Below the pieces are notes generated by a model, which saw nothing but the letters and a program-made list of their open reading frames with translations, was not told the DNA's origin and did not search any database. Shown piece after piece: positions 10,562 to 25,904 of a stretch of 64,000 bases of DNA; position 1 is the stretch's first letter, and every line of letters starts with the position of its first letter. Origin of the DNA: Streptomyces sp. Ncost-T10-10d (lineage in GTDB: Bacteria; Actinomycetota; Actinomycetes; Streptomycetales; Streptomycetaceae); assembly GCF_900091955.1 (NCBI RefSeq), contig NZ_FMDF01000152.1:1-64000 (forward strand). Direction: 5' to 3'. The translations under genes were made by a program, and so were the position numbers.

Positions 10562-11536
10562 CTAGCGTCCGAACACGCCGCGCAGGGCGTCGCGTTTGCG
10601 TGGCAGGTCGTACTCCGCGCCGCCCTCGTGCCCGTTGTACGTGAACACCTCGATCTCGGCCGGACCCGCATAGCGGTGATACGCGGCGAACACCGTGGAC
10701 GACGGGCAGATCCTGTCCATCAGGCCGACCGAGAACCACGCCGGGGCGGTCGCCCGCGCCGCGAAGTTGACCCCGTCGAAGTAGGACAGGGTCTCCATCG
10801 CCTCGTCGATCCGGAAGCGGTGCCCGGACAGCCAGCGGGCGATCTCCGCGTACGGTCCGGCGTCCGTGATCTGCGAGGCACGCCGGTAGTGGCAGAGGAA
10901 CGGCACATCGGCGACCGTCGCCGCGATGTCGTCCCGCAGCCCGGCGACGGCCAGGGCGAGCCCGCCGCCCTGGCTGCCCCCGAGCACCGCGACCCGGGAC
11001 GCGTCCACCGCCTCATGGGCCTTCGCCGCGTCCACCGCCCGCACCGCGTCCGCGATGAGCCGCCGGTAGTAGTGGCGGTACGGGTCCTCGATGCCGCGGG
11101 TCAGGAAGCCGGGCGAGGACGAGCCGTGCCCGTCGGGGCCGATGTCGGGGGTGTCCGCGGTGTTCTTGCCGCCGCCGCCCTGGCCCCGGTTGTCCATGAC
11201 CAGATGCGCGTAGCCGAGTGCGCTCCAGGTCAGCCAGGAGTACGGAATGCCCCGGCCGCCGTTGTAGCCGATGTACTGCACCACGGCGGGCAGCGGACCC
11301 GAGCGTGCCTTCGGCAGCATCAGCCATGCCTTCACGGGCTGCCCGCCCCAGCCGCGGAACGTCACATCCAGCACATCGACGGTCGCGAACCCGGCGTCGT
11401 ACGGGACGAACTCGGCGTCCAGGGGGTGGCGGGCCGTCTCGGTGAGCGTCTTCTCCCAGAAGGCGTCGAAGTCGGCCGGCTCCTCCGGTTCCGGCCGGTA
11501 GTCGCGCAGCCGGTCCAGATCCATGTCGAACAGCAA
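10562..11536 (-). CDS. CE7-type acetyl esterase (acetyl xylan esterase / cephalosporin-C deacetylase)
   Basis: The 324-residue alpha/beta hydrolase of carbohydrate esterase family 7 has nucleophile elbow LGGSQGGGLAL, the RGQGG segment of the family and a late active-site His in YNGHEGG. No signal peptide is visible, so it should work in the cytoplasm, removing acetyl groups from imported short saccharides. Start is TTG at 11536: GAGGAG lies about 8 nt before it, while the next ATG (11524) is too far. Only 4 bp separate it from the lyase stop, so translation is coupled. It is the last gene of the polysaccharide operon. Confidence 0.85.
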   Translation of the reverse strand: MLFDMDLDRLRDYRPEPEEPADFDAFWEKTLTETARHPLDAEFVPYDAGFATVDVLDVTFRGWGGQPVKAWLMLPKARSGPLPAVVQYIGYNGGRGIPYSWLTWSALGYAHLVMDNRGQGGGGKNTADTPDIGPDGHGSSSPGFLTRGIEDPYRHYYRRLIADAVRAVDAAKAHEAVDASRVAVLGGSQGGGLALAVAGLRDDIAATVADVPFLCHYRRASQITDAGPYAEIARWLSGHRFRIDEAMETLSYFDGVNFAARATAPAWFSVGLMDRICPSSTVFAAYHRYAGPAEIEVFTYNGHEGGAEYDLPRKRDALRGVFGR

Positions 11537-11540
11537 GGGT

Positions 11541-13964
11541 CTAGCTCCTCTTCAGGGTGAGGTTGAGGGTTGCACCGTGGCGTTCAGCGGTCTCGGCGGT
11601 GATCCGGATGCCGTTGCCGGTGGGTGCGGCGCTGACACCCGGATCGGCGGAGACGACGGTCAGACCGCGCTGCGCCAGGTCCAGGACCACCGAGGACCGC
11701 AGCTGCGTCGGATCGGACAGTGACACCTTCACCGTCTTTCCGTCCGGCCGTACGAGCACCGAGGCGGGACCGTCCGATGCCAGGTTCTGCGCGGTGCCCG
11801 CGGTCCAGAAGTTCGCGGCGACCAGTCCGTCCGCGCAGCGGCGTACCGCATGCACGGCGGTGGAGCGGGCGATCAGCTTCACCGGAGGCGCGGACGACCA
11901 CTGCTTCGTACGCTCGGCGGAGGCCGCCGGGGCTTGCAGCCAGAAGTAGCCCGCCCCGCTCGGGGCGGTGCCGTGGTCCTGCCACAGCGTCAGATACGGG
12001 CGGGTGACCGGGGTGTCCGTGCCGTACTTGAGATTGATCTCGCGCCAGGTCGCGGTGCGGTCCTCACGCAGGCCGTGGAGCGTGGCGGGCTCGGGGAAGA
12101 CGTAGCCGCCGGTCCCGGCGACATGCAGCCACCGCACCTGGTCGAGCTCTGCCGACCAGCCGGCGTCCGTGGGCGCGGCCGTGCCGTTGACGAGCAGGGC
12201 CGCCTTCGGGTCGCGGAGTTTCCGGTTCTCCACGACCGTCTCGGCCGTGCCCGCGTCGGAGGTGATGCCCGAGCCGACACAGGCGATCACATCGTCCAGG
12301 CAGAACCAACTCTTCAGCCCGTGCAGCGAACTTCCGTACGCGCGCAGCTCCATGCCGTAGGCACCGAGCGTCGTCCCGGGCAGTGCGGTGCCGCCCGCCC
12401 AGTCGGCCGTGCTGGTGGTGCGCTGCCCCGCCGCGTCCGCGGGCCGGCCGGCGATGACGGTGGTGCCGGGCAGCCGGGTCGGGTCGACGGTCGGCCAGTA
12501 GTCCTCGCTGTAGTGCCCGAGGTCGTCGGTGTGGAGCAGGACCATGCCGTCGGAGAGGTGCCAGGCGTGCAGATTCTCGTTCTGGATCGACTCGTAGTTG
12601 TAGATCCGGGACGAGTAGGCGGAGATGCCCAGCACGAAGGAAGGCCGGTGGTGGGCCGCCTTGTCCATCCGCGGGTGCTGCTTGTGCGCGACCAGCGGAC
12701 CACGCGCGGGGACCGGGGAAGCGATGACCTGCCGGGCGGCGACGAGCGAGGCGAGGTCGGTGACGGCCAGGAAGTCCCGGTAGGTGTCCTCGGCGATCCA
12801 TTGCTTGACCAGGGCGGTGAACCGGTCGGCAGTCTCCCCGGGGAAGCTCGGGATCAGCCGCACCACCGCTTCGATGACCGTCTGCGCCGAGACATGGCCC
12901 TGCTTGCTGGGGCGGGCGATCTCGCGCCCGCACACCGATGCCATCACATCTCCGCGGGCCAGCAGCGGGTCGAAGCCGTCGTCGACCCAGCTGCGGACGT
13001 TGTCGAGATCGGGGTCGGTGACCGTCCACGCCGTACCCGCGAGCAGGTTCAGCAGCCGGGAGAGGTTGTTCAGGAGCTCCTTGCCGTACCCGCCGTTGTA
13101 CGGGTGCTTGTAGTGCTGGAGGAACGAACCGTCGGAGTAGAAGCCCTCGCCGGTACCCTCCGTCGTCGCGCCGGCGTCATTGAAGGCGAGGACACTGTTG
13201 GCACCCGAACCCTCGACGTCCGAGAGAGCGTCACGGACCCGGGCCAGATCGTCCCCGTTGTCGCTGAGCACGGCGTTGACGGCGACGACGGTGGAGATCC
13301 ACACCCGGTTGGCGCCGGTCGCGATCTGCCGGTCGGCCCGCCAGAGGTTCGGGTCGGGCGTGTAGTGCCGGACAGCGGTGTTGATCCGGCCCAGCCGCTC
13401 CGTCCCGAGCGCGTCGTACAGCAGCACGGACGCGTCGTTGAGGGCGAGCGCGGAGCCGATCTCCCAGTCCCAGTCGTTGTCGAACCGGGTGCGGCCGGGG
13501 CCGTACCGGTTCGTCAGCATCCAGTCGATGCCGGCCAGCAGCAGATCGCGCAGCGCGGTGTCACCGTACTGAGGGGTGCCGGGCACGGCCCACGCGGTCG
13601 CGACCGTGGCGAGTCGCTTGAACGATGTCGTGACGTGGTTGGAGAGCGTGGTGCTGGTCAGATCGGGGAACAGCCCGTCGGTACGGGTCGGGTCGAGGCC
13701 CTTCGCCGAGGTGGTGGCGGCCTTGCCGATCCTGGCCACGGCCGCGGCGATCTGCGGGTCCCTCAGGTCGAGACCCGGGCCGCCGGTGAGCAGGGTGTGC
13801 CAGCGGGTGCGCAGGGAGGCGGCGTCATCGACGACGGCGTCCCCGGCCGCGGCGTGCGCGGGAGCCGCGGTGAGCGTGATCGGCAGGGCGGCGGCTGCGC
13901 CGAGCACCGCTGCCCCGGCGAGAACGGTGCGTCGGGTGGTGCCCGGAGTGTTGCCTGGGTTCAT
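11541..13964 (-). CDS. polysaccharide lyase family 8 protein (hyaluronate/chondroitin/xanthan lyase family), Tat-exported
   Basis: The 807-residue protein is of normal PL8 length. A twin-arginine signal (RRTVLAGAAVLGAAAALPI...AHA, about residues 11-38) is followed by the helical alpha/alpha-toroid and a beta-sandwich. The family's active-site landmarks are visible: IQNENLHAWHLSDGM with Asn and His, and GHYSEDYWPTVDPTRLPGTT with the catalytic Tyr. PL8 enzymes split uronic-acid polymers (hyaluronan, chondroitin, xanthan) by beta-elimination. It would act outside the cell as the main depolymerase of this locus. ATG at 13964 follows a GAGGG site. Substrate choice within PL8 cannot be decided by eye. 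Confidence 0.88.
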   Translation of the reverse strand: MNPGNTPGTTRRTVLAGAAVLGAAAALPITLTAAPAHAAAGDAVVDDAASLRTRWHTLLTGGPGLDLRDPQIAAAVARIGKAATTSAKGLDPTRTDGLFPDLTSTTLSNHVTTSFKRLATVATAWAVPGTPQYGDTALRDLLLAGIDWMLTNRYGPGRTRFDNDWDWEIGSALALNDASVLLYDALGTERLGRINTAVRHYTPDPNLWRADRQIATGANRVWISTVVAVNAVLSDNGDDLARVRDALSDVEGSGANSVLAFNDAGATTEGTGEGFYSDGSFLQHYKHPYNGGYGKELLNNLSRLLNLLAGTAWTVTDPDLDNVRSWVDDGFDPLLARGDVMASVCGREIARPSKQGHVSAQTVIEAVVRLIPSFPGETADRFTALVKQWIAEDTYRDFLAVTDLASLVAARQVIASPVPARGPLVAHKQHPRMDKAAHHRPSFVLGISAYSSRIYNYESIQNENLHAWHLSDGMVLLHTDDLGHYSEDYWPTVDPTRLPGTTVIAGRPADAAGQRTTSTADWAGGTALPGTTLGAYGMELRAYGSSLHGLKSWFCLDDVIACVGSGITSDAGTAETVVENRKLRDPKAALLVNGTAAPTDAGWSAELDQVRWLHVAGTGGYVFPEPATLHGLREDRTATWREINLKYGTDTPVTRPYLTLWQDHGTAPSGAGYFWLQAPAASAERTKQWSSAPPVKLIARSTAVHAVRRCADGLVAANFWTAGTAQNLASDGPASVLVRPDGKTVKVSLSDPTQLRSSVVLDLAQRGLTVVSADPGVSAAPTGNGIRITAETAERHGATLNLTLKRS

Positions 13965-13974
13965 GATGCGGCCC

Positions 13975-15126
13975 TCACAGAAGGTGTCGGCGGTCGACGG
14001 CCGCGGCCAGCGCGGCATGACCGGCGGGGTTGGGGTGCAGTCCGTCGCCGCTGTCGTACGCGGGCAGCATCTGCGACGGTTGTTCCGGGTCGCGCAGTGC
14101 CGTGTCGAAGTCGGCGACGGCGTCGAAGACCCGTCCGGTCCGTACCGCCGCGTTGACCTGCTGCCGTACCGCTTCCAGCTCCGGCGTCCAGCGGGTCCAG
14201 CCTCCGAACGGGGTGATGGTCGCGCCGACGACCCGCAGCCCGGCGTTACGGGCGCGAAGCACCAGCTGCCGGTACCCGGCGAGGACCCGCGCCGGATCGG
14301 TCTGGCTCGGCGGCTGCTGGAGGTCGTTGACGCCGAGATGGACGAGTACGGTCCGCAGCCCCGGAAGCGACAGCACATCCCGGTCGAAGCGTGCCTGTCC
14401 GCTCGGCCCGAACCGGGCGTCGTCCAGCAGCACCCGGTTTCCGCTGATGCCGAGATTGGCGACAGCCGCACCGGGAAGGCGCCTGGCCAGTTGGTCGGGC
14501 CAGCGCAGATCGGCGTCGTCGGGTGTGCCGACGCCCTCCGCTATGGAGTCGCCGAGCACCGCGATCACCGGCCCGTGCGCACCTGTCACCTCGACACCCG
14601 TCAGCAGGAACACCGATGTGGTGCGCACGCCGTCGACGGTGTGCGAGGCATGGGTGTTGCGGTGGAAGGACAGCGGCCCGGTGGGGCCGGGGAGTCGGGT
14701 CTCCACCGTCAGAGCCGCCCCTTCGGCGGTACGCAGACCGGCGACCGGGTCACTGGTCAGCGAGGCACCCGCGGCGATCCACGCCTGCGCTCGCCCGCCG
14801 AACGTCACCGGCCGACCGCCCGCCGTCACAGGGCCGATCAGGACCGGAACCGTGCCGAAGGCGTGCCCGTAGCGCAGCCGGACCGTTCCACCCGCCGACA
14901 GCCGTACGTCGGCGGTGAACGTGCCGTCGGTCAGCCCGGCGCTCGCCACCGCGTCGGTGGCGGTCGGCGCGGTCTGCGCGGTCGCCCAGGACGTCGTCCA
15001 GCGCGACCGGCCCATGCCACTGTTCGACGCCACGGCGGCCTGCGCCCCCGGCGCCGTCGCGGCGACCGCCGCCAGCCCGGCCGCCGCCGTCAGTACCCCG
15101 CGTCTCGCGGGTCCCCGCCCGCTCAC
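13975..15126 (-). CDS. SGNH/GDSL hydrolase, exported
   Basis: The 383-residue esterase has all SGNH blocks: I GDSIAEG (nucleophile Ser), II LGISGNRV, III HLGVNDL and V GDGLHPNPAGH (catalytic Asp and His). Residues 1-27 form an export signal with paired arginines (PARRGVLTAAAGLAAVAA), possibly Tat. A beta-rich domain of about 150 residues precedes the catalytic part, as in Streptomyces proteins resembling rhamnogalacturonan acetylesterase. The GTG at 15126 overlaps the upstream stop by 4 bp (GTGA), which fixes the start. Likely removes acetyl or other acyl groups from the extracellular polymer. Confidence 0.87.
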   Translation of the reverse strand: MSGRGPARRGVLTAAAGLAAVAATAPGAQAAVASNSGMGRSRWTTSWATAQTAPTATDAVASAGLTDGTFTADVRLSAGGTVRLRYGHAFGTVPVLIGPVTAGGRPVTFGGRAQAWIAAGASLTSDPVAGLRTAEGAALTVETRLPGPTGPLSFHRNTHASHTVDGVRTTSVFLLTGVEVTGAHGPVIAVLGDSIAEGVGTPDDADLRWPDQLARRLPGAAVANLGISGNRVLLDDARFGPSGQARFDRDVLSLPGLRTVLVHLGVNDLQQPPSQTDPARVLAGYRQLVLRARNAGLRVVGATITPFGGWTRWTPELEAVRQQVNAAVRTGRVFDAVADFDTALRDPEQPSQMLPAYDSGDGLHPNPAGHAALAAAVDRRHLL

Positions 15127-16199
15127 CGGGGGCACGCACCGGTCGGCTTGTAGTCGCTGCCGTAGGTGCCGACCGCGTCGCCACCGGTGTTGCCGCTCAT
15201 CGTGTTGGTGCACACCGGACCCTGCGGGGTGCGCATGAACTTGATGCCGCCGCCCGCGTTACCGGTGATGGTGTTGCCGTAGACACTGGTGTCGATGCCG
15301 TCGGTCGCAGTGTCGCCGCCGAGCCGGATGCCCGCGCCGACGTTGTCGTGAATGGTGTTGTAGCGGAAGATGTTGCCGCTGCCGCGCGCGTCCAGCCCAC
15401 CGGAGCCGGCGTCCTTCTGACCGCTGCAGTCGTTGTACTCGACGTAGTTGTTGGTCGAGTTCTCCTTCACATCGACGCACTCATTGCCCTGGGTGGCGAT
15501 GGTGTTGTGGTGGATGCGGTTGTTCCTGCTGATGTCGGGGACCGCGTCCGGGGCGCCGTTCGCCCCCTGCTGCTCGGGGGCCGTACCGAGGTAGATGCCC
15601 TCGCCGTTCTTGCCGCCGCCGCCGAACCTGAAGTCGTTGACCCCGCAGTTGGTGATCGTGTTGTCGGAGATGTCGGCGCCGGTCACCAGATAGCGCACCC
15701 GCAGGCATTCGTCGGCGGCGTTCTTCAGTGTCATTCCAGTGATCCGCAGACCGCCCACACCATTGCCGGGAGTCGTGCTCATGACATAGATGAGTTTGAG
15801 GCGGTATCCCGACACATCGGTGGACGACCCGTGCAGTCCGTCCACGGTGAAACCGCTGAGCGTCGTCGAGTCGTGCTGCACCTGAATGATCCGGGCGTCG
15901 CCGGCCCCCTTCACCACGGCGTTCGACGGGCCGGTGATGGTGACTCCGGCGCGCTTGGTCACGACGTCCTGCTTGTACGTGCCGGCGGCGAGGTTCACGA
16001 CCGAGCCCGTCGGTGCCAGGTCGACCGCTTTCTGGATCGAGGCGAGCGGGGCGCTCGCCGACGTGCCGGCGTTGGAGTCGCTGCCGGACGGCGACACGTA
16101 GTACGCAGTGGCTTCGGCGGCCACGGACGTCGGGGGGAAGACCAGCGGGGCGCCTGCGGCGAGCGCGGCGACGAGAGTGGTGTGTAGTACACGGCTCAT
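15123..16199 (-). CDS. secreted right-handed parallel beta-helix protein (pectate-lyase-like fold)
   Basis: The 358-residue protein has a Sec-type signal peptide (to about residue 28, ending SVAAEA). An N-terminal YYVSPSGSDSNAGT segment typical of PbH1 polysaccharide lyases follows, then many short Asn-rich turns such as ISDNTITNCG, NRIHHNTIATQG and NYVEYNDCSG that make a parallel beta-helix. This fold is used by PL1, PL6, PL9 and PL31 lyases and some epimerases. NECVDVKENSTNNYVEYNDC resembles the conserved core of PL6/PL9-like proteins. It overlaps the next upstream gene by 4 bp (ATGA) and has a strong AGGAGG. Lyase activity is likely but unproven; the exact family is uncertain. Confidence 0.8.
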   Translation of the reverse strand: MSRVLHTTLVAALAAGAPLVFPPTSVAAEATAYYVSPSGSDSNAGTSASAPLASIQKAVDLAPTGSVVNLAAGTYKQDVVTKRAGVTITGPSNAVVKGAGDARIIQVQHDSTTLSGFTVDGLHGSSTDVSGYRLKLIYVMSTTPGNGVGGLRITGMTLKNAADECLRVRYLVTGADISDNTITNCGVNDFRFGGGGKNGEGIYLGTAPEQQGANGAPDAVPDISRNNRIHHNTIATQGNECVDVKENSTNNYVEYNDCSGQKDAGSGGLDARGSGNIFRYNTIHDNVGAGIRLGGDTATDGIDTSVYGNTITGNAGGGIKFMRTPQGPVCTNTMSGNTGGDAVGTYGSDYKPTGACPR

Positions 16200-16798
16200 G
16201 GGGTGTGCCTCCTGGGGTCTGCGAAGGACAGAGCGAGCAGTACGGGGATGCTGGGGCCGAGGAGCAGGGGCCCCAGCGGTACGACGAGGGAGAGCAGCGC
16301 GGCGGAGATCACCGCGCCGAGCAGTGCGGTGCCACGGGCCGCGGACCCGAAGCCGAGGGCCAGCGCACCGCGCGACCAGGTGCGGACCGTCCCGTGCGGC
16401 GACCGGCCCGCCTCGGCCGCGAGCGCCACATGATGGATGACCAGAGCGGCCGCGATGCCCACCTGCGCGGCGAGCAGTACGAACGTCCACGGCTCCGGAC
16501 GGCCCAGCAGATAGAGGATGTCGGCGGTCAGGACGATCCCCGCCGCGGTGGACGCCAGGGAATGGCGCCACAGGGCTCGCCAATACTGCGGGAAGGCGCT
16601 GAACGCGTTGGTGAAGCAATGGCTGTCGCCCTCCGCCCGCCACCGCTGCAGGGCATGCCCCATCGCGGCGAGCGCGGGCAGCCAGGTCACGACACCGAGC
16701 GACAGCACGGTGAACGCGGCCCCGGCGGCGGCCGGGTAGGCCACGAACTCCAGCCGCCGCAGCAGCGTCGGCCAGCCGGACGAGAGGGTTGCCTGCAT
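16196..16798 (-). CDS. DUF624 (YesL-like) membrane protein
   Basis: The 200-residue integral membrane protein has about five hydrophobic segments (around residues 20-45, 75-95, 105-128, 148-170 and 172-190). It has the short charged N-terminus and the LEFVAYPAAAGAAFTVLSL start common to DUF624/YesL. In Bacillus, YesL is encoded with a pectin-oligosaccharide ABC importer, and related proteins often sit in carbohydrate operons; the molecular role is unknown. It begins 2 bp after the stop of the upstream gene and ends in a 4-bp overlap with the beta-helix gene. Confidence 0.8.
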   Translation of the reverse strand: MQATLSSGWPTLLRRLEFVAYPAAAGAAFTVLSLGVVTWLPALAAMGHALQRWRAEGDSHCFTNAFSAFPQYWRALWRHSLASTAAGIVLTADILYLLGRPEPWTFVLLAAQVGIAAALVIHHVALAAEAGRSPHGTVRTWSRGALALGFGSAARGTALLGAVISAALLSLVVPLGPLLLGPSIPVLLALSFADPRRHTP

Positions 16799-16800
16799 GA

Positions 16801-18786
16801 TCAGCCAACCTTTCCTGTGTACGGCTCCGGGACATCGAGCAGCACGCGGCCGTCCAGCTCCAGCCGGGTGGCCGCCACCACATAAGGGGCGTAGTTGTCG
16901 CCGCCGAGCAGCACCGCCGCCGCATCGGCCGCGACGGCGGCGGTACGGATGCGACGGGTGACGGGGGAGAGGAGCACGGTCTCCTTGCCGAAGGTGATGC
17001 CCTCGCCCTCCGCACACACGACCCGCTCGGCGGCGACCGGCCCGCCGCCCGGGGTGATCGCGGTGAGGAAGACAGCGTTCGACGTCCGCGCGGTCGTCGA
17101 ACGCAGCGTGTGCAGCGTGCGGGTGAGGCGTAGCTCCGGCGTACTCGACGTCGGATTGGCCTCGACCTCCGTGGCCTCGGAGACCACGGAGCCGTCGCGC
17201 GGCGCGAACTGCCGCACCAGCGCCGAGGCCGCCCCGGACCGGATCAGCCGACTGCCGTCCGGCTGCGGCTCGGTCGGCCGGTCGGTCTGCAGCAGGAACG
17301 TCCATTCCCGCTCCGCGTCCGCCTCGGCGAGGTCCAGCAGTACGAGCCGCCCCGACGGGGTGAACACCAGCGTCCGGTCCAGCCGCCGCACGCCGAGAGC
17401 GGGGTCGTACATCGCTGCGATCTCCGCCGTGGCATGCGCCCAGCCGCAGTCGGGGGCGGCGAGCACATCTCGCTGCCGGGCCTGCCGCTCGTACGGGATG
17501 TCCTTGTAGACGTGATAGCGGTCCTCGTCCGCGTACCCCTGTCCGTCCACCAGCAGCAGATTGTGGTGCGCGGCCCGCTTGCGGTTGCTGTAACCCTCGT
17601 CGACCGCGAGGAACGCGCCCTGCGAGACCAGCACGAACGAGCCCGAATCGGGGTGGTGGTGCCCCTGATTGAGGGTTTCCCAGCCCCGGTCGGCCCGATG
17701 CTTCGCCGACGTCTCCCACGCCTTGTGGCCACCTCCGGGGCTTGCCTTGAACGAGACGAGCGTGGCGTCGTCGTCCCAGCCGGTACGGGCCGCGAGCAGA
17801 CCGAGATCCGGGAAGAAGGCCCTGGTCTCGGTGGGGCGGGCGCCGGCCAAGGACGGGTCGTACCAGAGATATTCGAGGTAGGCCTCCGGCAGAATCCCGG
17901 GCCGCACCCCGCTCTCCGCTGCTTCCTGCCACAGCAGTTCACCCGAGGCGAGATCGCCCATCCACTGTGCCTCCGGGATGCCGTACTGGGCCGCCAGACG
18001 GTAGTACAGACCGGCGCTGTGCCCGCTGCGCCGGTCGTGGCAGTCGCCGTGGTCCACATTGAACGCGAAGCCCGGGGCGGTCTGGTGCAGCCGGTAGCGG
18101 AAGGTGCGGGAGAGGAAACCGCCCCGCCCCCACCAGTTGATGCCCTCCGCCTCCTGGAGGAGATCCAGATGGATGGCGAGGAAGGGCACGCCGTAGCGCC
18201 AGTACACAACACCTTCGGCGTGCGAGCCGTCCTCGGGCATCAGATCGAGGACCATGCCGAGGTTGTCCTTGGCACGCTCGGTCCACTCCTCCTTGCCCAG
18301 CACATATCCGGCCGTCGCCAGACCCGCGTAACAGATCCAGTTGTGGTTCTGCCAGTACGACGACGACCACCAGCCGCCCTCGCTCGCCACCGCGAATTCG
18401 TACATCCGCCGCCCCTGGAGCAGCAGCTTGTACCGCAGCAGTGCCCGCACCCCGTCCGGCAGATCGTCGCCGATCCACCGGTACGCGAGCGACAGATGGT
18501 GCAGCAGCCAGCCGGCGTCCAGATCGTGGTCCGGCATATGGGCCTTGCCCCAGTGCGGCAGCCGCACCGCGGCCTCGATCCAGCGGCGGCTCTCCGCCAG
18601 ATGGGCCGGGTCGCCGCCGACCCGGTAGGCCAGCGCCGGGTTGGAGGCGGCCGGGCCCAGCCAGGTGATGCTGGCCAGAGGATGCGTACGGGGCGGGGTC
18701 AGCCCGCGGTGGCGGGCGGCCTCCTCGTACAGTCGCACCTCCTGCGCGGGGCGCGGACCGGGCGGCGGGGTCGCCGAGAGCAACAA
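16801..18786 (-). CDS. heparinase II/III-family protein (first copy, cytoplasmic)
   Basis: The 661-residue protein has a helical toroid N-terminal half (SLAYRWIGDD, WSSSYWQNHNWICYAGLA) and the heparinase II/III-like beta-sheet domain, marked by HHHPDSGSFVLVSQGAFLAVD followed by HHNLLLVDGQG. Members of this fold (PL12, PL15, PL17, PL21) are often exolytic lyases acting on oligosaccharides. No signal peptide is seen, so it should act on imported oligomers. Start is TTG at 18786, 8 nt after GGAGG, three bases past the upstream stop; a TTG follows directly at 18783. Asn, His and Tyr candidates are present, but I cannot assign a PL family. Confidence 0.85.
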   Translation of the reverse strand: MLLSATPPPGPRPAQEVRLYEEAARHRGLTPPRTHPLASITWLGPAASNPALAYRVGGDPAHLAESRRWIEAAVRLPHWGKAHMPDHDLDAGWLLHHLSLAYRWIGDDLPDGVRALLRYKLLLQGRRMYEFAVASEGGWWSSSYWQNHNWICYAGLATAGYVLGKEEWTERAKDNLGMVLDLMPEDGSHAEGVVYWRYGVPFLAIHLDLLQEAEGINWWGRGGFLSRTFRYRLHQTAPGFAFNVDHGDCHDRRSGHSAGLYYRLAAQYGIPEAQWMGDLASGELLWQEAAESGVRPGILPEAYLEYLWYDPSLAGARPTETRAFFPDLGLLAARTGWDDDATLVSFKASPGGGHKAWETSAKHRADRGWETLNQGHHHPDSGSFVLVSQGAFLAVDEGYSNRKRAAHHNLLLVDGQGYADEDRYHVYKDIPYERQARQRDVLAAPDCGWAHATAEIAAMYDPALGVRRLDRTLVFTPSGRLVLLDLAEADAEREWTFLLQTDRPTEPQPDGSRLIRSGAASALVRQFAPRDGSVVSEATEVEANPTSSTPELRLTRTLHTLRSTTARTSNAVFLTAITPGGGPVAAERVVCAEGEGITFGKETVLLSPVTRRIRTAAVAADAAAVLLGGDNYAPYVVAATRLELDGRVLLDVPEPYTGKVG

Positions 18787-18789
18787 GGG

Positions 18790-20580
18790 TCAGTCCTCCG
18801 TCCGGAACCGTGCGAAGCTGCCGTCGGCCAGCGCGACCGTCAGCAGTCCGTCACCGTCCAGCTGTACGCCGGTGACGGCGGGGCCCGCCGACGCCGCCTG
18901 ATACACCGAGGCGAATGTGATCCGGTCCGACTTCACGGTGAAGTCGACCCGGGTACGCATGCACTGCGGATCGTCGGCCGGACCGGGGCCCGGCCGGGTG
19001 ACCGGACGCACGGCCGCGCCGGGCGTGTGGGTGTGCCAGCCGTGCAGGGCCTCGTCGCCGTACCAGGTGGTGCGGACCTCGCCCGAGGCCTGGAGCTGGA
19101 CGTCCAGCGCGACACCGGGACGCAACTGCGCGGTGACCTGCCGTACGTCCTCGGCTGTCACGGTCAGCAGGTCGACCAGATAGTTGTCGCCGAGCGCGAC
19201 CTGCCGCACCGCACGCACACCTTCGTACGCCGTCGTCACCTCGGCCGTGACGCAGGAGCCGTCCGAGCCGAGCAACCTCCCGGTGCACTCGATCTGTTCC
19301 GCGCCGCCCACCCGGAAGGCGGGGTGCGCCTCGGTCGATGCGTACAGATCGCGGAATTCGGCGTGTGCGTAAGGAACTTGACCGGGGTCGGGCTGCCACG
19401 GGGTGGTGTCCCCGTACAGATACAGGGACAGTTTGTCGCGGTGCCCGTGCGAGCCGCCGTGCGGACCGAAGTCCAGCAGTGCGTGGACGCCCGCGTGGTG
19501 CAGCACCGCGTATCCGGCGGTGGGGAACACCGTGACCGGCGTCGGCACCGGACGCTCCGGCAGCGGGGGGCCCGCGAACCATCCGCCCAGCTCGCGGTCG
19601 AGCCCGTCGTCATGTGCGCCGAGTTCGTCGCGAGCTCGCTCTGCCACCGCATCGAGAGCGGCGGAGGGAACCAACTGCTGTGCAAGTGCGGCAAGTTCGA
19701 GCCACTCCAGCGCGAGCGGACCGCGCAGGTACGGGCCGTCGTGCAGCGCGGGCAGAATACCGCCCGGAGTGGCGATCGCCGCCAGTACGTCCGTCATCGC
19801 AGCCAGTACGTGCACCACATCGGACGGAACGGCCGCAGGGTCGGTGCCGCGCAGCGCCAGCAGCGCGGCCCGCAGCACGAACCCGTGGTAGTAGGTGCTG
19901 CCCTCCCATTCCCAGCCGTCGTCGGCGACCGCGACCCGCAGATGCGCATACAGTCCGTGCTCGCCCTCCAGCCACTGTTCGGCGCCGTCCCACTCCTGGC
20001 CACGGGCCGCAGCGGCGCCCCGACTCGCCGCCACACCGGCCGCGTTGAGCCACGCGGTGTAGTTGGAGGCGAGGTGGCCCTGACCGGTGAGCACGTCCCG
20101 GGCGTCGAGAGCGGCCCGCTCCAGCGCGTCCAGCAGCGGCAGCACCGGTGCCAGGTCCTCGGTCGACTGCTCGGCGAGCGTGATCACGGCGTGCCCGACG
20201 TTTACCGCCCAGATGGCGTCGGTCAGCGCCTGGTGGAAGAGCCGTCCGCGCAGCATCCAGGACTGGGCCTCGCCGTGCCGCTCGGTGGCCAGCGAGGCGT
20301 ACAGCCCCGCGTACTCCACCAGCCGCGACACCGACTCCGCGCGCTCCTTGCGATGGGCGAGCACCCGCAGGTGCCGCGCCCACGCCTGGTGCGACAGCAC
20401 CAGCCACGCGCCGCGCACCGCCTCGTCGTCCACCCGGCAGCCGTACGCACACCGCGCACCGCCCACCGGGAAGACGCCGGCGAGCAGGTCACCGTGGTCG
20501 AGTTCCACACCGTGCGCCGGGCAGACGTATGCGTGCCACCAGCCGCCGCGTTCCCGGGCGATGCGCCTCAACGCGGCCAC
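18790..20580 (-). CDS. heparinase II/III-family protein (second copy, cytoplasmic)
   Basis: The 596-residue protein shares the architecture of its downstream neighbour but little sequence: helical N-terminal region (GHLASNYTAWLNAAGVAAS, DGWEWEGSTYYHGFVLRAAL) and beta-domain marker GPHGGSHGHRDKLSLYLYG. WVHAYVCPAHG-like text with several Cys near residues 20-50 is unusual and could bind a metal. No signal peptide. It may be an exo-lyase that yields unsaturated monomers for the following SDR. The GTG at 20580 overlaps the SDR end by 13 bp; an in-frame TTG at 20571 would give the 4-bp overlap seen elsewhere in this operon and is equally possible. Confidence 0.82.
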   Translation of the reverse strand: MAALRRIARERGGWWHAYVCPAHGVELDHGDLLAGVFPVGGARCAYGCRVDDEAVRGAWLVLSHQAWARHLRVLAHRKERAESVSRLVEYAGLYASLATERHGEAQSWMLRGRLFHQALTDAIWAVNVGHAVITLAEQSTEDLAPVLPLLDALERAALDARDVLTGQGHLASNYTAWLNAAGVAASRGAAAARGQEWDGAEQWLEGEHGLYAHLRVAVADDGWEWEGSTYYHGFVLRAALLALRGTDPAAVPSDVVHVLAAMTDVLAAIATPGGILPALHDGPYLRGPLALEWLELAALAQQLVPSAALDAVAERARDELGAHDDGLDRELGGWFAGPPLPERPVPTPVTVFPTAGYAVLHHAGVHALLDFGPHGGSHGHRDKLSLYLYGDTTPWQPDPGQVPYAHAEFRDLYASTEAHPAFRVGGAEQIECTGRLLGSDGSCVTAEVTTAYEGVRAVRQVALGDNYLVDLLTVTAEDVRQVTAQLRPGVALDVQLQASGEVRTTWYGDEALHGWHTHTPGAAVRPVTRPGPGPADDPQCMRTRVDFTVKSDRITFASVYQAASAGPAVTGVQLDGDGLLTVALADGSFARFRTED

Positions 20581-21332
20581 ACGCCACCGTCGATGTCCAC
20601 CGTGGTGGCGGTGAGGAAGCCGGACGACGGCGACGCCAGATGCACGACCGCCGCGGCGACATCCTCCGGGGTGCCGGCCCGGCCGACCGGGATGCCCGCC
20701 TCCATCGCCTGCTGCGCCTCGGGCGCGGTGAACGTGTCGTGGAAGGCGGTGCCCTTGATGAAGCCGGGCGCCACGGTGTTGACCGTGATGCCTGTGCCGC
20801 CGAGTTCCTTGGCCAAGCCCTTGGTGAAGCCGCGGACACCGGCCTTGGCCGCCGCGTAGGCCACCGAGCCGGGGCCGCCTCCGTTGTGCGCGGCCAGCGA
20901 GGACATCGTGATGATGCGGCCGGCCGACGACTGCTTCAGGTGGGGGATCGCGGCGCGCACGGTACGGAACGTGGAGGTCAGATTGGTGGAGAGAACCTGG
21001 TCGAAGTGGTCGTCGGACATCTCGGCGATGGTCGCCCGGCCGATCAGATGACCCGCGTTGCAGACCAGCACGTCCAGCCCGCCGAGGAAGCCGGTCGCCT
21101 CGTCGACGAGCCGGTCCACATCGCCGGTCACCGTGACGTCGGCCTTGAACGCCTTCGCCCGGCGGCCCAGCGCCTCGATCGCGGCGACCGTCTTCGCGGC
21201 CTCGTCGGCGGAGGAATTGTAGTGGACGGCGACGTCCGCACCGGCCTCGGCGAGCACGACGGCGATGGCGCGGCCGATGCCGTGGCCCGCCCCTGTCACC
21301 AGTGCGCGGGAGCCGTTGAGATCAGCAGACAT
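20568..21332 (-). CDS. SDR family oxidoreductase
   Basis: The 254-residue classical short-chain dehydrogenase has the cofactor motif TGAGHGIG (residues 13-20), the NAG motif in LVCNAGH, catalytic Ser in TMSSLAAHN and the Tyr-x-x-x-Lys pair in AYAAAKAG. Proteins of this kind include KduD and the DEH reductases that reduce the keto-uronate released by exolytic lyases to 2-keto-3-deoxygluconate; position right before two heparinase-type genes suggests such a role. The kinase and aldolase expected after that step are not in the window. The start at ATG 21332 is about 11 nt from AAAGG. Confidence 0.87.
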   Translation of the reverse strand: MSADLNGSRALVTGAGHGIGRAIAVVLAEAGADVAVHYNSSADEAAKTVAAIEALGRRAKAFKADVTVTGDVDRLVDEATGFLGGLDVLVCNAGHLIGRATIAEMSDDHFDQVLSTNLTSTFRTVRAAIPHLKQSSAGRIITMSSLAAHNGGGPGSVAYAAAKAGVRGFTKGLAKELGGTGITVNTVAPGFIKGTAFHDTFTAPEAQQAMEAGIPVGRAGTPEDVAAAVVHLASPSSGFLTATTVDIDGGVWPR

Positions 21333-21415
21333 GGAGTAAGTACCTTTCGAAGAACGGTCGTTCGGGCGAAAGCCGGTGACGTGGGGCCTGTTCCGTTCGC
21401 GGGGACCGGAACCGG

Positions 21416-22339
21416 TCACTTGAGACCGGCGGTCGCGAAGCCCTGCACGAAGTACCGCTGGCCGATGAGGAAGAGAATGACCATGGGCAGGGTGGCCAGC
21501 GTGGTGCCGGCCATCAGGAAGTGCCACTGGGGGCCGTTCTCCGTCTTGAAGACGGAGAGTCCCACCTGGATCACCCGCAGGCTGTCCGTGCGGGTCACCA
21601 GCAGTGGCCAGAGGAAGTTGTTCCACGACGACTCGAAGGTCAGCAGCGCCACGGTGGTGAGCGCGGGCTTGACCTGCGGCGTCATGATCCGGGCGTAGAT
21701 CCGGAACTCGCCCAGACCGTCGAGCCTGGCCGCCTCCTCCAGCTCCACCGGAAGGTCCAGATAGAACTGGCGGAAGAGGAAGACCGCGAACGGGGTGACG
21801 GCGCCGGGAATGATCAGCGCCCACCAGGAGTCCAGCCAGCCGCTGCCGCCCTGGCCGAAGATGTCGTTCCCGCCGGCCAGCGGCATGAAGCGGACGATCA
21901 GGAACTCCGGCAGCACCTTGGTGTACGTGGGGATCACCAGCGCGGCGATGAAGAGGTAGAAGATGACCTCGCTGCCCCGGAACTTGATCCGGGCCAGCGA
22001 GTACCCGGCCATCGAGGCCACGACCACGTTGATGAGGGTGTGACTGAAGGCGATGATGAAGCTGTTGCGCGCGTACGTCGCGAACGGCGCCGCCTTCAGT
22101 GCGTCGACGTAGTTCCCGAACTCCCAGTGTTCCGGAAGCAGTCCGGCGTCCTGGGAGGCGATCTCCACCGGGGTCTTGAGCGAGGTGAGCACCATCCAGA
22201 CGAACGGCACCACCATAAGCAGCGAGACGACGGTGAGGGTCACGTAGAGCGCGATCCGGCCGGCGGTGAGCGGCTTGCCGTTCCTCACCGGCCGGGACTT
22301 GCGCGTGGCCCCCGGTGCGTGGAGCTCAGTTGTGGCCAC
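21416..22339 (-). CDS. sugar ABC transporter permease, MalG/CUT1 type
   Basis: The 307-residue inner-membrane subunit has six predicted helices and the EAA loop EEAARLDGLGEFRIYARIMTP, which docks the ATPase. The N-terminus is basic and faces the cytoplasm. It starts with GTG at 22339, overlapping the partner permease by 14 bp. No ATPase gene is present; Streptomyces CUT1 systems commonly share the ATPase MsiK, encoded elsewhere. Confidence 0.92.
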   Translation of the reverse strand: MATTELHAPGATRKSRPVRNGKPLTAGRIALYVTLTVVSLLMVVPFVWMVLTSLKTPVEIASQDAGLLPEHWEFGNYVDALKAAPFATYARNSFIIAFSHTLINVVVASMAGYSLARIKFRGSEVIFYLFIAALVIPTYTKVLPEFLIVRFMPLAGGNDIFGQGGSGWLDSWWALIIPGAVTPFAVFLFRQFYLDLPVELEEAARLDGLGEFRIYARIMTPQVKPALTTVALLTFESSWNNFLWPLLVTRTDSLRVIQVGLSVFKTENGPQWHFLMAGTTLATLPMVILFLIGQRYFVQGFATAGLK

Positions 22340-23294
22340 GGGTGCCTCCCATGATCCGCCGGTTGACCAGGGTGAAGCCCATCAGCAGCACGAACAGCAC
22401 CAGTGACTGGGCACAGGCGTAGCCGACGCGGAACTCCCGGAAGGCGGACTTGTAGATCTCGTACGTCATCATCGTGGTGCTGTTGGCGGGACCGCCGTCG
22501 GTCAGGATGTAGATCTGGTCGAAGGACTGGAACGCGCTGATCATCGACGTGATGAGGACGAAGAACGTAGCGGGCTTCAGCAGCGGCAGTGTGATCGAGA
22601 AGAACTGCCGCACCTTCGAGGCACCGTCCACCGAGGCCGCCTCGTACAGCTCCTTCGGCAGGGACTGCAGCGCGGCCAGATAGATGAGCATCTTCATGCC
22701 GATGCCCTGCCAGATGCCGACCAGGATCACCGAGGGCATCGCCCACGAGGTCGACGAGAGCCAGGCCGGGCCGTCGATCCCGAGGAACGACAGGAGTGTG
22801 TTCAGCAGCCCGTTGCCCGGGTTGTAGATCCACAGCCAGACCAGCGCGATCGCGACGGTCGCCGTCACCTGCGGCAGGAAGACCGCGGTACGGAAGATGC
22901 CCCTGGCCTTCAGACCGGTGTGCAGCGCCAGGGCGACGAGCAGCCCCAGCGCCATGCCGAACGGCACGGTGAAGAAGGTGTAGACGACCGTGTTGACGAT
23001 GGACTTGCGGAAGACCGCGTCGCCCATCATCTCGCTGAAGTTGTCCAGACCCACGAACTGCGGCGCCGTCAGCACGTCGTACTTCGTGAAGGCCAGGACC
23101 ACCGATGCGACGACCGGCAGGCCGATCCAGAGCGAGGCATGCAGCAGCGCGGGCGCCACCATCAGCATGCCGGCGCGCTGCCTGCGGCGCCCCGGCCCCG
23201 TCGGGGCCCGGCCGGAGCGCTTCTTCGGGACCGTGTGTCCGGCCGGGGCGGAGGGCGGCGCGGGGCGCGCCTTCAATACGGATGTAGCTCCCAC
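22326..23294 (-). CDS. sugar ABC transporter permease, MalF/CUT1 type
   Basis: The 322-residue membrane protein has a basic cytoplasmic tail (about 40 residues rich in Arg, Lys and Pro), six helices and the EAA motif YEAASVDGASKVRQFFSITLP. It pairs with the downstream MalG-type subunit to form the channel of the oligosaccharide importer. GTG start at 23294 lies 12 bp after the binding-protein stop, with AAGGAC upstream. Confidence 0.92.
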   Translation of the reverse strand: MGATSVLKARPAPPSAPAGHTVPKKRSGRAPTGPGRRRQRAGMLMVAPALLHASLWIGLPVVASVVLAFTKYDVLTAPQFVGLDNFSEMMGDAVFRKSIVNTVVYTFFTVPFGMALGLLVALALHTGLKARGIFRTAVFLPQVTATVAIALVWLWIYNPGNGLLNTLLSFLGIDGPAWLSSTSWAMPSVILVGIWQGIGMKMLIYLAALQSLPKELYEAASVDGASKVRQFFSITLPLLKPATFFVLITSMISAFQSFDQIYILTDGGPANSTTMMTYEIYKSAFREFRVGYACAQSLVLFVLLMGFTLVNRRIMGGTRGHN

Positions 23295-23306
23295 AGCGAC
23301 GGGTCC

Positions 23307-24575
23307 TTACATCCGGCCGATCGCGGCCTCGGCGAGCCGGCCGAGTTCAGCGATGGCGTCCTTCGCCGACTGGTTGCCCACGATCGCGGGCTCCAGCGTG
23401 GGCTTGATCTTCTCGCGGATCTCCATCCACGCGGGGGTGCCGCCCTCGGAGCACGCGTAGCCCATGCTCTGCAGGGAGAGATCGACGAACTTGTTCTCCT
23501 TCACGTACGAGGTGTCGCTGAGGTCCTTCAGGCCGGGCACCGAACCCCGCTGCTTGGCAGCGCCGAGGATCGACTCGGGCGAGGCGAGGTACTCGACGAG
23601 CGCGCGGGCCGCCGCGGGGTGCTTCGAACTGGCGGACTGGGTGACGAGGGTGCCGCCCTGGAGCATCGCGGGCTTGCGGTTGGCGAGGACGAACGCCCCG
23701 AGCTTGTCGTCCTTGAGTAGTTCCGGCGCCTGGTCCCCGACCTGCTTCCACAGCGCGCTGCTCGTCATCATCATCGACGCCTTGCCGGTCTGTACGTTGC
23801 TCGGGGCACCGAGCTCCGTCTTCTTGGCGTAGTCGGCGGAGCCGTCCTTGACGAGGTCCTTGAAGAACTGCAGCGCCTCGACCCCGCGGGCGTCGGTGAA
23901 CAGCACCTTCTTGCCGTCCGCGCTGAACAGCTGGCCGCCGTTGGCGAAGAGGAAGGTCTCCCAGCACTGGCGCAGTTCGATGGAGAACGGGTCGAATCCG
24001 ACCCGTCCGTTCTTGGTGAGCTGCTTGGCCACGGCGCGCAGCTCGGCCCAGTTCGCCGGGGTCTTCTTGATGCCGGCCTCGGCGAAGTGGTCCTTGCGGT
24101 ACACGACGATGCGGGTGTCGAGGACGACCGGCAGCGCGTACAGCTTGCCGTCGTACCGGGACGGCTCAAGCACCCGCTTCTCGTAGTCGTGCGCGGAGGC
24201 GAACTTCTCCGGCAGTTCGGCGATCGCCTTCTTGGCCGCGAACGGCGGGATCCAGCCGACGCCCATCATCAGCACGTCGGGCAGCAGACCGCCCGCGAGA
24301 CCGGTGGTGATCTTCTCGTTGAGCTGGGCGTACGTGGTGTAGTCCACGTTCACCTTGACGTCCGGGTACTTCTTCCGGAAGCCGCCGAGTATCTCCTTCT
24401 CCAACAGCGTCTTGCCGTCGGCACCTTCGTAGATCGGGGTGAGCAGAGTGATCTCACCTTCGGCGGGACCGTCGGCGGAGCCGGCCGTCGAAGTGCCGGT
24501 GCCGCACCCGCTGAGGGCGGCGGCAGCGGTGCCGGCACCGATGGCAGCAAGCAGCGACCGTCTTTTGAGTTCCAT
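23307..24575 (-). CDS. extracellular sugar-binding lipoprotein (CUT1 family 1 SBP)
   Basis: The 422-residue substrate-binding protein has a lipoprotein signal: basic MELKRRS, hydrophobic stretch and lipobox LSGC with the lipidated Cys24. The mature part has the family-1 SBP pattern, including LPDVLMMGVGWIPPFAAK and YDGKLYALPVVLDTRIVVYRKD. It is anchored outside the membrane and would hand oligosaccharides to the two permeases. It is the first gene of the operon, behind three candidate LacI operators. AAAAGGGG precedes the ATG at 24575. Confidence 0.92.
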   Translation of the reverse strand: MELKRRSLLAAIGAGTAAAALSGCGTGTSTAGSADGPAEGEITLLTPIYEGADGKTLLEKEILGGFRKKYPDVKVNVDYTTYAQLNEKITTGLAGGLLPDVLMMGVGWIPPFAAKKAIAELPEKFASAHDYEKRVLEPSRYDGKLYALPVVLDTRIVVYRKDHFAEAGIKKTPANWAELRAVAKQLTKNGRVGFDPFSIELRQCWETFLFANGGQLFSADGKKVLFTDARGVEALQFFKDLVKDGSADYAKKTELGAPSNVQTGKASMMMTSSALWKQVGDQAPELLKDDKLGAFVLANRKPAMLQGGTLVTQSASSKHPAAARALVEYLASPESILGAAKQRGSVPGLKDLSDTSYVKENKFVDLSLQSMGYACSEGGTPAWMEIREKIKPTLEPAIVGNQSAKDAIAELGRLAEAAIGRM

Positions 24576-24614: not shown

Positions 24615-24647
24615 CGATGACAACTCGGCCATGGCTGAGAAGCGCTG

Positions 24648-24661
24648 GTAAATCGATGCAC
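24648..24661. promoter_or_regulatory. candidate LacI-type operator 2
   Basis: GTAAATCGATGCAC fits GTnnATCGATnnAC fully, with the central CpG typical of LacI-family sites. It lies in the middle of the divergent region and is followed by CTGATG, similar to the flank of site 3. Confidence 0.6.
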
Positions 24662-24751
24662 TGATGCTAGGAACGCCCCGAGAGGGACGTCAACAGCTGA
24701 TGCACATGAATTTTCAGGGATGTTAACGGGTGTACCGGTGAACCGGGTCCA

Positions 24752-24765
24752 GTAAATCGATACAC
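24752..24765. promoter_or_regulatory. candidate LacI-type operator 3
   Basis: GTAAATCGATACAC fits the same pattern fully and is identical to site 2 except for one central-flank base. It lies 36 bp before the lacI-like start codon, suggesting autoregulation. Confidence 0.6.
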
Positions 24766-24800
24766 TGCTAAGGTCAGATGCGTTCCGAACCGGAGGTGGC

Positions 24801-25904
24801 ATGAGCGGGGTAACGATCCATCAGGTCGCGGAGGCCGCAGGGGTCTCCGCGAGCACGGTCTCCAACGTCCTCAACGGGCGTACGGACCGTATGCAGGCGG
24901 CCACGCTGGCCCGCGTGGAGCAGGTGATCGAGCAGCTCAGCTACCGGCCCAATCGCGCGGCCCGGATGCTGCGAACGGGCCGCATCAAGGTCATCGGTCT
25001 CATCGTGCCGTCCGTCGCCAACCCGTTCTGGGGGGCGCTCGCCCGTGAGCTGGAGGCCATCGCGCTCGCCGAGGGCTATCACGTACTGCTCTGCAACAGC
25101 GAGCGCGATCCGGCCCGCGAGCTCAAGTACGGCGAGGAGTTGCTCGCGGACGGGGTCAGCGGAGTGGTGCTCTGCTCCTCGCTCCCCTCGCTCGACCATG
25201 TGACACCGCTGCTCAGCCGCGGACTGAAGATGGTCGCCTTCGACCGCACCGCACAGGCGGGCGATCCGCCGTCGCTGGCCTCCATCAGTGTCGACAACGC
25301 GATGGGTGCCGAGCTCGCCACCCGTCATCTGATCGAACTCGGCCACCGCCGACTGGCGTTCGTCTCCGGATCGGTCAACAGCGTCAACCGCCGTGAGCGG
25401 CTGCGCGGCTTCCGGGCCGCCCTGGAGTCTGCCGGTCTCGACCCGGCCGACGCGATCGTCTGGCCCGGCGCCGACACCGCCGAGTTCGGTGACAAGGACG
25501 CCGCCGAACTGGGGCGGAACGCCGCCAGGGAACTCCTCGGCGGGCCGCGCCCGCCGACCGCGTTCGTCGCCATCAACGACATGTGCGCGATCGGGATCTG
25601 CCGGGGTGCCAAGGACGCCGGACGCAGTGCGGGGCAGGACGTCTCCGTGGTCGGCTTCGACGACATCCTCCTCGCCGACCTCTTCGAGCCCCCGCTCACG
25701 ACGGTCCGCCAGCCGTTGCCGGAGATGGCCGCGGAGACGTTCCAGCAGCTGCGCGCGCGGATCGACTCGGCGCCTGCGGCGGGACGGTCGCTGCTCATCC
25801 GGCCGAGACTGGTCGTACGGGAGTCGACGGCCCCGGTCGGCGTGGCCGCCACGGTCCCCGGGCCGAGCGGAGCCGGGCAGCGGGTGGCGGGCCGGACGGC
25901 ATAG
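24801..25904 (+). CDS. LacI family transcriptional regulator of the polysaccharide operon
   Basis: The 367-residue protein has an N-terminal LacI helix-turn-helix (VTIHQVAEAAGVSASTVSNV, residues 4-23) and hinge helix RPNRAARMLRTGR, then a periplasmic-binding-protein-like sensor domain (IGLIVPSVANPFWG to the TTVRQPLPEM end). ATG 24801 is preceded by GGAGGTGG. It is divergent from the 11-gene operon and three matching palindromes lie between, so it most likely represses the operon until an oligosaccharide or uronate product binds. Confidence 0.92.
   Translation: MSGVTIHQVAEAAGVSASTVSNVLNGRTDRMQAATLARVEQVIEQLSYRPNRAARMLRTGRIKVIGLIVPSVANPFWGALARELEAIALAEGYHVLLCNSERDPARELKYGEELLADGVSGVVLCSSLPSLDHVTPLLSRGLKMVAFDRTAQAGDPPSLASISVDNAMGAELATRHLIELGHRRLAFVSGSVNSVNRRERLRGFRAALESAGLDPADAIVWPGADTAEFGDKDAAELGRNAARELLGGPRPPTAFVAINDMCAIGICRGAKDAGRSAGQDVSVVGFDDILLADLFEPPLTTVRQPLPEMAAETFQQLRARIDSAPAAGRSLLIRPRLVVRESTAPVGVAATVPGPSGAGQRVAGRTA

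Follow-up and report, generated by a model that had tools for sequence, protein, structure and literature searches.

Introduction

Most of what is known about alginate catabolic loci comes from marine and Gram-negative bacteria. The marine operons combine a PL7 or PL6 endolyase with oligoalginate lyases, a reductase for 4-deoxy-L-erythro-5-hexoseulose uronate (DEH), a kinase for 2-keto-3-deoxy-gluconate (KDG) and an aldolase for 2-keto-3-deoxy-6-phosphogluconate (KDPG). In alginate catabolism the oligoalginate lyases make the final cuts, the released monomer is converted to DEH, and a short-chain dehydrogenase/reductase (SDR) reduces DEH to KDG. Bacterial alginate is O-acetylated on mannuronate, while algal alginate is not. 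For the part that oligoalginate lyases play, see PMC11921355.

Here we consider an eleven-gene operon in a 64,000-nucleotide stretch of DNA (the window) from Streptomyces sp. Ncost-T10-10d (contig NZ_FMDF01000152.1, positions 1 to 64,000), whose genome is 9.36 Mb. Judging from sequence comparison, we put at roughly 0.7 the probability that the operon serves the utilization of alginate, rich in polymannuronate, and that it works by lyases alone. The assignment follows from four lyase-type proteins, for which the evidence is partly independent, together with related loci that carry PL7 and PL6-type lyases. A preliminary description of the window had proposed that an acidic, probably acylated polysaccharide is taken up and degraded, which our results support, and that the locus might be an undescribed polysaccharide utilization locus. 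The latter holds within the literature searched: no published description of the locus was found in the titles, abstract openings and text passages that the search covered, and the PL8 enzyme alone appears to have been characterized, as Aly16-1, rather than the locus.

Results

Organization of the locus and proposed pathway

The operon occupies 24575 to 10562 of the minus strand and faces a divergent LacI gene. Its features are as follows, in order of transcription, with the regulator last.

23307-24575, minus strand: solute-binding protein (SBP), lipoprotein-like (PF01547, E 1.7e-40)
22326-23294, minus strand: ABC importer permease 1 (BPD_transp_1, E 3e-21), position conserved in relatives
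21416-22339, minus strand: ABC importer permease 2 (BPD_transp_1, E 4.4e-18), position conserved in relatives
20568-21332, minus strand: SDR reductase (adh_short families), proposed DEH reductase giving KDG
18790-20580, minus strand: hepA, PL17-like lyase of 596 aa, predicted cytoplasmic (PL17 profile, 2e-11)
16801-18786, minus strand: hepB, lyase of 661 aa resembling dermatan-sulfate epimerase (DSE), PL15 and PL35 in profile matches, predicted cytoplasmic
16196-16798, minus strand: DUF624 membrane protein, likely importer accessory (PF04854, E 4.1e-7; weak MusI family match, E 0.035)
15123-16199, minus strand: beta-helix protein, predicted secreted, proposed PsAly-like alginate lyase from the fold match of its model
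13975-15126, minus strand: SGNH esterase with an N-terminal domain, predicted secreted (PF13472, E 2e-30; GTG start at 15126 or 15135)
11541-13964, minus strand: PL8 lyase of 807 aa with three Lyase_8 domains, predicted secreted, proposed endolytic mannuronate (M)-preferring alginate lyase
10562-11536, minus strand: CE7-type (AXE1) esterase (PF05448, E 2.8e-105), proposed cytoplasmic deacetylase of imported oligosaccharides
24801-25904, plus strand: LacI-family regulator, divergent (PF00356, E 1.8e-15; PF13377, E 5.2e-35), linked in related loci

All eleven genes of the preliminary description are present at their coordinates on the minus strand, separated by short gaps or overlaps (12, -14, 83, -13, 3, 2, -4, -4, 10 and 4 bases from SBP to CE7). 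Most of its family calls are borne out by Pfam, namely PL8, CE7, SGNH, DUF624, SDR, SBP and both permeases. The heparinase call is borne out in part: hepA passes the Hepar_II_III_C cut-off, and hepB falls below it (16.7 versus 24 bits). The beta-helix protein matches DUF1565 and Beta_helix. N-termini, judged by eye, agree with the suggested division of labour, since PL8, the beta-helix protein and SGNH have signal-peptide-like N-termini, as does the lipoprotein-like SBP, and no signal peptide is evident on CE7, SDR, hepA or hepB.

In the pathway that we propose, the PL8 lyase and the PsAly-like beta-helix lyase would cut the polymer outside the cell by beta-elimination, while the SGNH esterase would strip acyl groups. 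Unsaturated oligosaccharides would then be imported by the SBP and two permeases, with DUF624 as a helper and presumably together with the shared MsiK ATPase. Inside the cell, CE7 would take off the remaining acetyl groups, and the PL17-like and PL15/DSE-like lyases would free unsaturated monomers one by one. These would open to DEH, which the SDR would reduce to KDG, and a kinase and KDPG aldolase, whose genes lie beside the operon in relatives and elsewhere in the host genome, would yield pyruvate and glyceraldehyde 3-phosphate.

The predicted secreted lyases

The N-terminal, super-sandwich and C-terminal Lyase_8 domains of the PL8 protein match with E 1e-63, 3e-66 and 6.1e-17, each over its cut-off. 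The catalytic residues, which we take to be N194, H246, Y255 and R309 in xanthan lyase numbering, are kept as N219, H284, Y293 and R347. Enzymes of the PL8 family are common in Streptomyces (98 of 121 genomes), and the host genome has three copies; the two others (G000:C215:83542 and G000:C73:8501) outscore the operon PL8 on Pfam Lyase_8. The locus type is uncommon: a search with the S. fimicarius orthologue, at an E no higher than 1e-150, matched 17 of 295 genomes, the host's own included.

A characterized counterpart is Aly16-1 from Streptomyces sp. CB16. According to PMC11596371, this PL8 enzyme, the product of a 2418-bp gene, has 805 residues, 38 of them in the signal, with domain borders at W57, Q390, N429, S684, E698 and V762, and is endolytic and M-preferring, with about 15,284 U/mg on polymannuronate (polyM) against 438 on polyguluronate (polyG). 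That paper covers a single enzyme; within its text the term 'gene cluster' does not appear, and glucuronan appears once, in a reference title. A marine fungus has a PL8 enzyme that is reported to be an exo-acting polyM lyase (PMC7911691).

Orthologues of the window PL8 were compared with Aly16-1 at seven published landmark residues, taking for each frame the start that gave the best agreement. Under that choice, the S. anulatus and S. fimicarius orthologues (L034 and L056) match six of seven, the other orthologues zero to four, and the Streptomyces PL8 paralogue frames examined two at most. Aly16-1 also resembles the S. anulatus and S. fimicarius proteins in size (805 versus 807-809 aa), domain borders and signal length. 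The predicted PL8 mass is 85.4-85.8 kDa, against 85.3 for Aly16-1, and the window PL8 has a predicted pI of 6.1, the value published for Aly16-1. On balance the window PL8 is probably, though not certainly, orthologous to Aly16-1.

The second protein is a candidate secreted lyase on account of its predicted fold. The AlphaFold model of the beta-helix protein (mean pLDDT 85.6) has as its top match the alginate lyase PsAly (6kfn), with a Foldseek E of 5.8e-9 and TM scores of 0.62/0.73. VIA ranks 6kfn first as well (Z 32.6, rmsd 2.2 over 274), followed by a glycoside hydrolase (30.1) and alginate C5-epimerases (about 30). We take PsAly to be a PL31 enzyme. As reported in PMC6796002, PsAly comes from Paenibacillus sp. 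FPU-7, prefers polymannuronate, and uses catalytic Tyr184 and Lys221 with the ligands Glu181, Glu216 and Asp219. The spacing of E181-Y184 and E216-D219-K221, matched by spacing rather than by 3D superposition, recurs in the window protein as E200-Y203 and E240-D243-K245, and all five residues are invariant in 14 of 14 orthologues. The two proteins thus share a right-handed beta-helix with equal spacing of the catalytic Y and K and the E/E/D cation ligands, although they are 22% identical over 274 aligned residues and have no sequence-profile match. On the strength of the model we propose that the beta-helix protein is a PsAly-like alginate lyase.

The predicted cytoplasmic lyases

The two proteins that had been described as heparinase II/III-type lyases separate by profile search into a PL17-like hepA and a hepB that matches DSE, then PL15 and PL35. 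In a profile search with hepA, PL17 alginate lyases score best (2e-11), and Foldseek places PL17 entries in all of the top eight ranks for its model, at 14-18% identity. The PL17 oligoalginate lyases (Alg17c 4nei, 7bjt, 8bdd) resemble hepA in profile, fold and proposed monomer-releasing role. In hepA, unlike in those enzymes, there is no match to the Pfam Alginate_lyase domain, and there is an N-terminal C20/H23/C44/C48 motif. The four residues of this motif are invariant in 14 of 14 orthologues, which suggests a metal site; to our knowledge no such site occurs in characterized PL17 enzymes.

For hepB the profile matches are DSE (1.4e-23), PL15 Atu3025 (1.4e-16) and PL35 (6.8e-14). In hepB, H148, Y195 and H376-378 are invariant in 14 of 14 orthologues; the His and Tyr probably correspond to the catalytic pair of Atu3025 (3a0o) and DSE (6hzn), an equivalence taken from the DSE alignment rather than from one with the PL15 enzyme.

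Fate of the monomers

The preliminary description had proposed a route to 2-keto-3-deoxy-uronates through lyases plus an SDR, and the present evidence supports a route to KDG. The SDR passes the cut-off of a FabG-named subfamily and lies under that of KduD (177.5 of 338.85 bits). The same description had considered the lack of an unsaturated glucuronyl hydrolase (GH88/GH105) in the locus unusual. The absence extends to the whole host genome, where PF07470 found no match, the same search being positive in 3 of 14 control genomes. Such an absence is to be expected, because alginate pathways end with exolytic lyases and a DEH reductase, and we do not regard it as an anomaly; with exolytic lyases the hydrolase is unneeded.

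Uronates from glucuronan, pectin and glycosaminoglycans (GAGs) are normally routed through KduI. The host genome has a single gene of the KduI family (PF04962), and it was rejected as KduI and assigned to inositol IolB, whose model it passes (276.9 versus 205 bits). A KDPG aldolase is encoded by one gene, unlinked to the operon. The last steps, those of the kinase and aldolase, are the weakest part of the pathway.

The esterases

Two esterases raise the question of an acetylated substrate. The nearest solved structure to CE7 is 1vlq, an acetyl xylan esterase/cephalosporin-C deacetylase (E 1.8e-113), and the serine motif GGSQGG and the motif NGHEGG are both present. Enzymes of CE7 commonly act on short acetylated oligosaccharides inside the cell. 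The SGNH protein is related to 7tog/7toj, two-domain acetylesterases of glucuronoxylan that strip acetyl beside a uronic acid on xylan. It has the GDS and GLHP motifs, and has GDSI in place of the GNSI signature of glucuronoxylan acetylesterases.

The proposed M preference of PL8, combined with the acetylation of bacterial alginate, suggests that hosts of the PL8 version naturally feed on bacterial alginate; the version with PL8 and esterases would serve O-acetylated, M-rich bacterial alginate in soil. A more specific proposal can be formulated, which we hold tentatively and at somewhat less than even odds: that soil Streptomyces carry a dedicated machine for the O-acetylated, M-rich alginate of other bacteria, such as Azotobacter or the Pseudomonas biofilm matrix, that the secreted SGNH and cytoplasmic CE7 proteins are catabolic alginate acetylesterases, and that the core has been re-tooled between bacterial and algal alginate by exchanging PL8 and the esterases for PL7.

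Related loci

A scan of a genome collection gave 43 related loci. The core order LacI, SBP, two permeases, SDR, hepA, hepB and DUF624 is found in 37 of them; the six loci with an incomplete order are five short stretches and L060, which has no SBP or permease match. The complete order from LacI to CE7 occurs in 22 of the 43. The nearest named relative is that of S. atratus JCM 3386, with a hepB 96% identical. The hepB gene is present in 16 of 199 Streptomyces genomes, counting the host's own and one decayed copy, and in 3 of 396 genomes sampled from the phylum, again counting the host's own.

For the lyase and esterase content we used the 38 loci of at least 15 kb with hepB (L032, L035, L043, L050 and L057 were omitted), and we did not accept weak SGNH matches of less than 60% identity, such as that in L058 (41%), as the operon esterase. 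A PL7 call means a homologue of the Alginate_lyase2 protein of L048 in or near the operon, with Pfam checked in L047, L048 and L059. By this count PL8 is present in 28 loci and PL7 in 10, with none having both and none having neither; the PL7 form of the core occurs in divergent actinobacteria. CE7 accompanies PL8 in all 28 cases and the SGNH esterase in 23; in the fetched DNA of the 10 PL7 loci, neither esterase was found. On the hepB tree one switch or two would account for the exchange, so the 38 loci are not independent and the correlation of lyase and esterase content is suggestive only.

Eight of the 10 PL7 loci also carry linked genes for KDPG aldolase and a PfkB kinase. The kinase of L048 is closest to KDG-kinase models and those of the relatives to KDG-kinase or aldolase/kinase-fusion models, all below cut-offs. 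In a Micromonospora locus, PL7 and a PL6-type protein (Chondroitinas_B, E 2.1e-51) lie close by, and the KDPG aldolase and PfkB kinase genes come directly after the core.

A further variant is found in two loci (L128, 11388-13868, and L129, 7078-9591) from genomes of the host's phylum, for which no closer kinship is stated. Here a secreted protein with F5/8C, beta-helix and CBM96 parts (family f16) fills the lyase slot of the core, and in one of the two a KDPG aldolase gene and a partial kinase gene lie directly upstream. The f16 protein is a candidate for a new alginate-active beta-helix enzyme.

Several other features of the collection may be recorded. Judged by name, several hosts of the PL7 version have marine names or codes (Micromonospora marina, CNQ085, CNT312), and one PL8 host (L039) is named for mangrove soil. 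The hepB of L059 (Nocardiopsis sp. CNT312) nests within the PL7-type Streptomyces clade, suggesting horizontal transfer; its beta-helix gene is a partial match only (37%). L060 (Actinocatenispora rupis) has PL8, CE7 and a partial SGNH as a block upstream of LacI and a second, more distant PL8 (28%) downstream, with the usual SBP and permeases undetected. L066 (G057:C1:7278500-7298499) is a decayed copy that retains part of hepB, the beta-helix and SGNH genes, a remnant of DUF624 and a fragment of PL8; hepA, SDR, importer and CE7 were not found in that stretch. In L031, around 14400-20100, the matches to the genes for the beta-helix protein, PL8 and CE7 are each split in two, owing either to assembly frameshifts or to decay.

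Regulation

The region between the SBP and LacI genes contains the following putative elements.

24645-24663, minus strand: putative LacI operator CAGTGCATCGATTTACCAG, directly after the -10-like element
24664-24693, minus strand: sigma-70-like promoter, TTGACG-18-TAGCAT (one found, against a shuffle mean of 0.2)
24749-24767, minus strand: second putative operator CAGTGTATCGATTTACTGG, adjoining the LacI gene

At least one operator-like copy with up to three mismatches occurs in 22 of 22 intergenic regions (the window and 21 loci, PL7-type included). Exact matches in the whole genome are confined to the two window sites, and relaxing the scan to three mismatches brings in two more, as many as a reversed-pattern control gives. 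LacI would repress from the two operators at the divergent promoters, and it most likely controls the eleven-gene operon only.

Discussion

Alternative substrates

Several observations weigh against a dedicated alginate locus. According to PMC11596371, Aly16-1 also acts on hyaluronan, chondroitin sulfates and xanthan. Its authors give less than 30% global identity to characterized PL8s, whereas xanthan lyase, the nearest solved structure to the window PL8 in the PDB, shares 41.6% identity with it (584 aligned positions, first six alignment blocks). The link to Aly16-1 is imperfect in other respects too: the window PL8 matches one of the seven landmarks, with shifted numbering, in a test that can support orthology and not exclude it, as an N-terminal shift of a few residues drops the score, and the predicted pI in L034 and L056 is 6.5-6.7 against the published 6.1. 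A sequence profile of the beta-helix protein does not include 6kfn among its 14 matches up to E 5. For hepA, VIA ties heparinase III and PL17 (Z 25.6 and 25.5), and the Pfam Alginate_lyase domain was not found in a protein where only Hepar_II_III_C is over cut-off; lacking that domain, hepA is not classed here as a PL17 member. DSE (6hzn) is ahead of PL15 (3a0o) as the nearest solved relative of hepB, and the PL35 GAG lyases match too. The SDR is similar to the carbonyl reductase 3afm, which we take to be A1-R (E 6.1e-44), with other SDRs scoring higher; the similarity is generic and FabG-like models are ahead. Finally, no kinase or aldolase gene is linked in any of the 28 PL8 loci within the DNA fetched, and the best host match to the relatives' kinase, 39% identical, lies in another cluster that is seemingly for other compounds.

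Some of these points would fit a broad scavenger of uronate polymers (GAGs, xanthan, alginate) built around a promiscuous PL8, given the substrate range of Aly16-1, the closeness of PL8 to xanthan lyase, the DSE and PL35 resemblance of hepB, and the tie with heparinase III in hepA. However, the operon has no glycosidase and the genome no GH88/GH105, so that the neutral or amino sugars of GAGs and xanthan would not be handled by the operon. In addition, of the xanthan lyase residues R313, Y315 and R612, which we take to recognize pyruvylated mannose, R313 is kept in the window PL8 (R351), and the other two are changed (Y315 to S353 and R612 to K646). We consider the scavenger improbable, and slightly more so than a second possibility, that the substrate is an O-acetylated beta-1,4-glucuronan of rhizobial or fungal origin, which is unlikely in its own right. 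Glucuronan would obey the same lyase-only logic, being a homopolyuronide that can be acetylated and needs no glycosidase, and glucuronan lyases occur in PL8, PL7 and PL38. Its monomer, though, is presumably an L-threo keto-uronate, on which KduI must act ahead of KduD; the only KduI-family gene in the genome is IolB, and the SDR is well under the KduD cut-off. The PL7 and PL6-type lyases of the relatives, the alginate-lyase-like beta-helix and the polyM preference of Aly16-1 also speak for alginate rather than glucuronan.

The esterases could be read differently, as serving a plant or fungal heteropolysaccharide that is acetylated and bears uronic side chains, such as a glucuronoxylan-like polymer, with the lyases acting on the side chains: the kin of SGNH act next to methylglucuronic acid on xylan, and the kin of CE7 are acetyl xylan esterases. 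We regard this as the least probable of the three, because the operon is without a backbone glycoside hydrolase, the SGNH protein has GDSI and not GNSI, the lyases seem to be of alginate type, and neither esterase was found in the 10 loci where the core goes with PL7. Xanthan as the main substrate, in line with the xanthan-like polymer first suggested, was rejected; the operon lacks hydrolases for backbone and side chains, two of the three pyruvate-site residues of PL8 are changed, and with the rest of the locus and its relatives seemingly of alginate type, polymannuronate-rich alginate is the better supported substrate.

Comparison with known alginate systems

The lyase-only version with two esterases occurs in about 8% of the sampled Streptomyces species (16 of 199 genomes). 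If the alginate reading is correct, common soil actinobacteria would harvest the protective slime of other bacteria, and the locus would be a source of enzymes for acetylated alginate, of relevance to biofilm research. The reading also makes a clear prediction on the specificity of the esterases.

Finally, we note how the locus compares with the marine alginate operons. The predicted functional parts are the same, and the relatives L047, L048 and L059 hold a nearly full set of them. The Streptomyces locus departs from the marine plan in having its kinase and aldolase genes outside the operon, in importing through an ABC transporter with a DUF624 protein, and in placing a PL8 enzyme, a PsAly-like lyase and two esterases in what would be the secreted and deacetylating roles.

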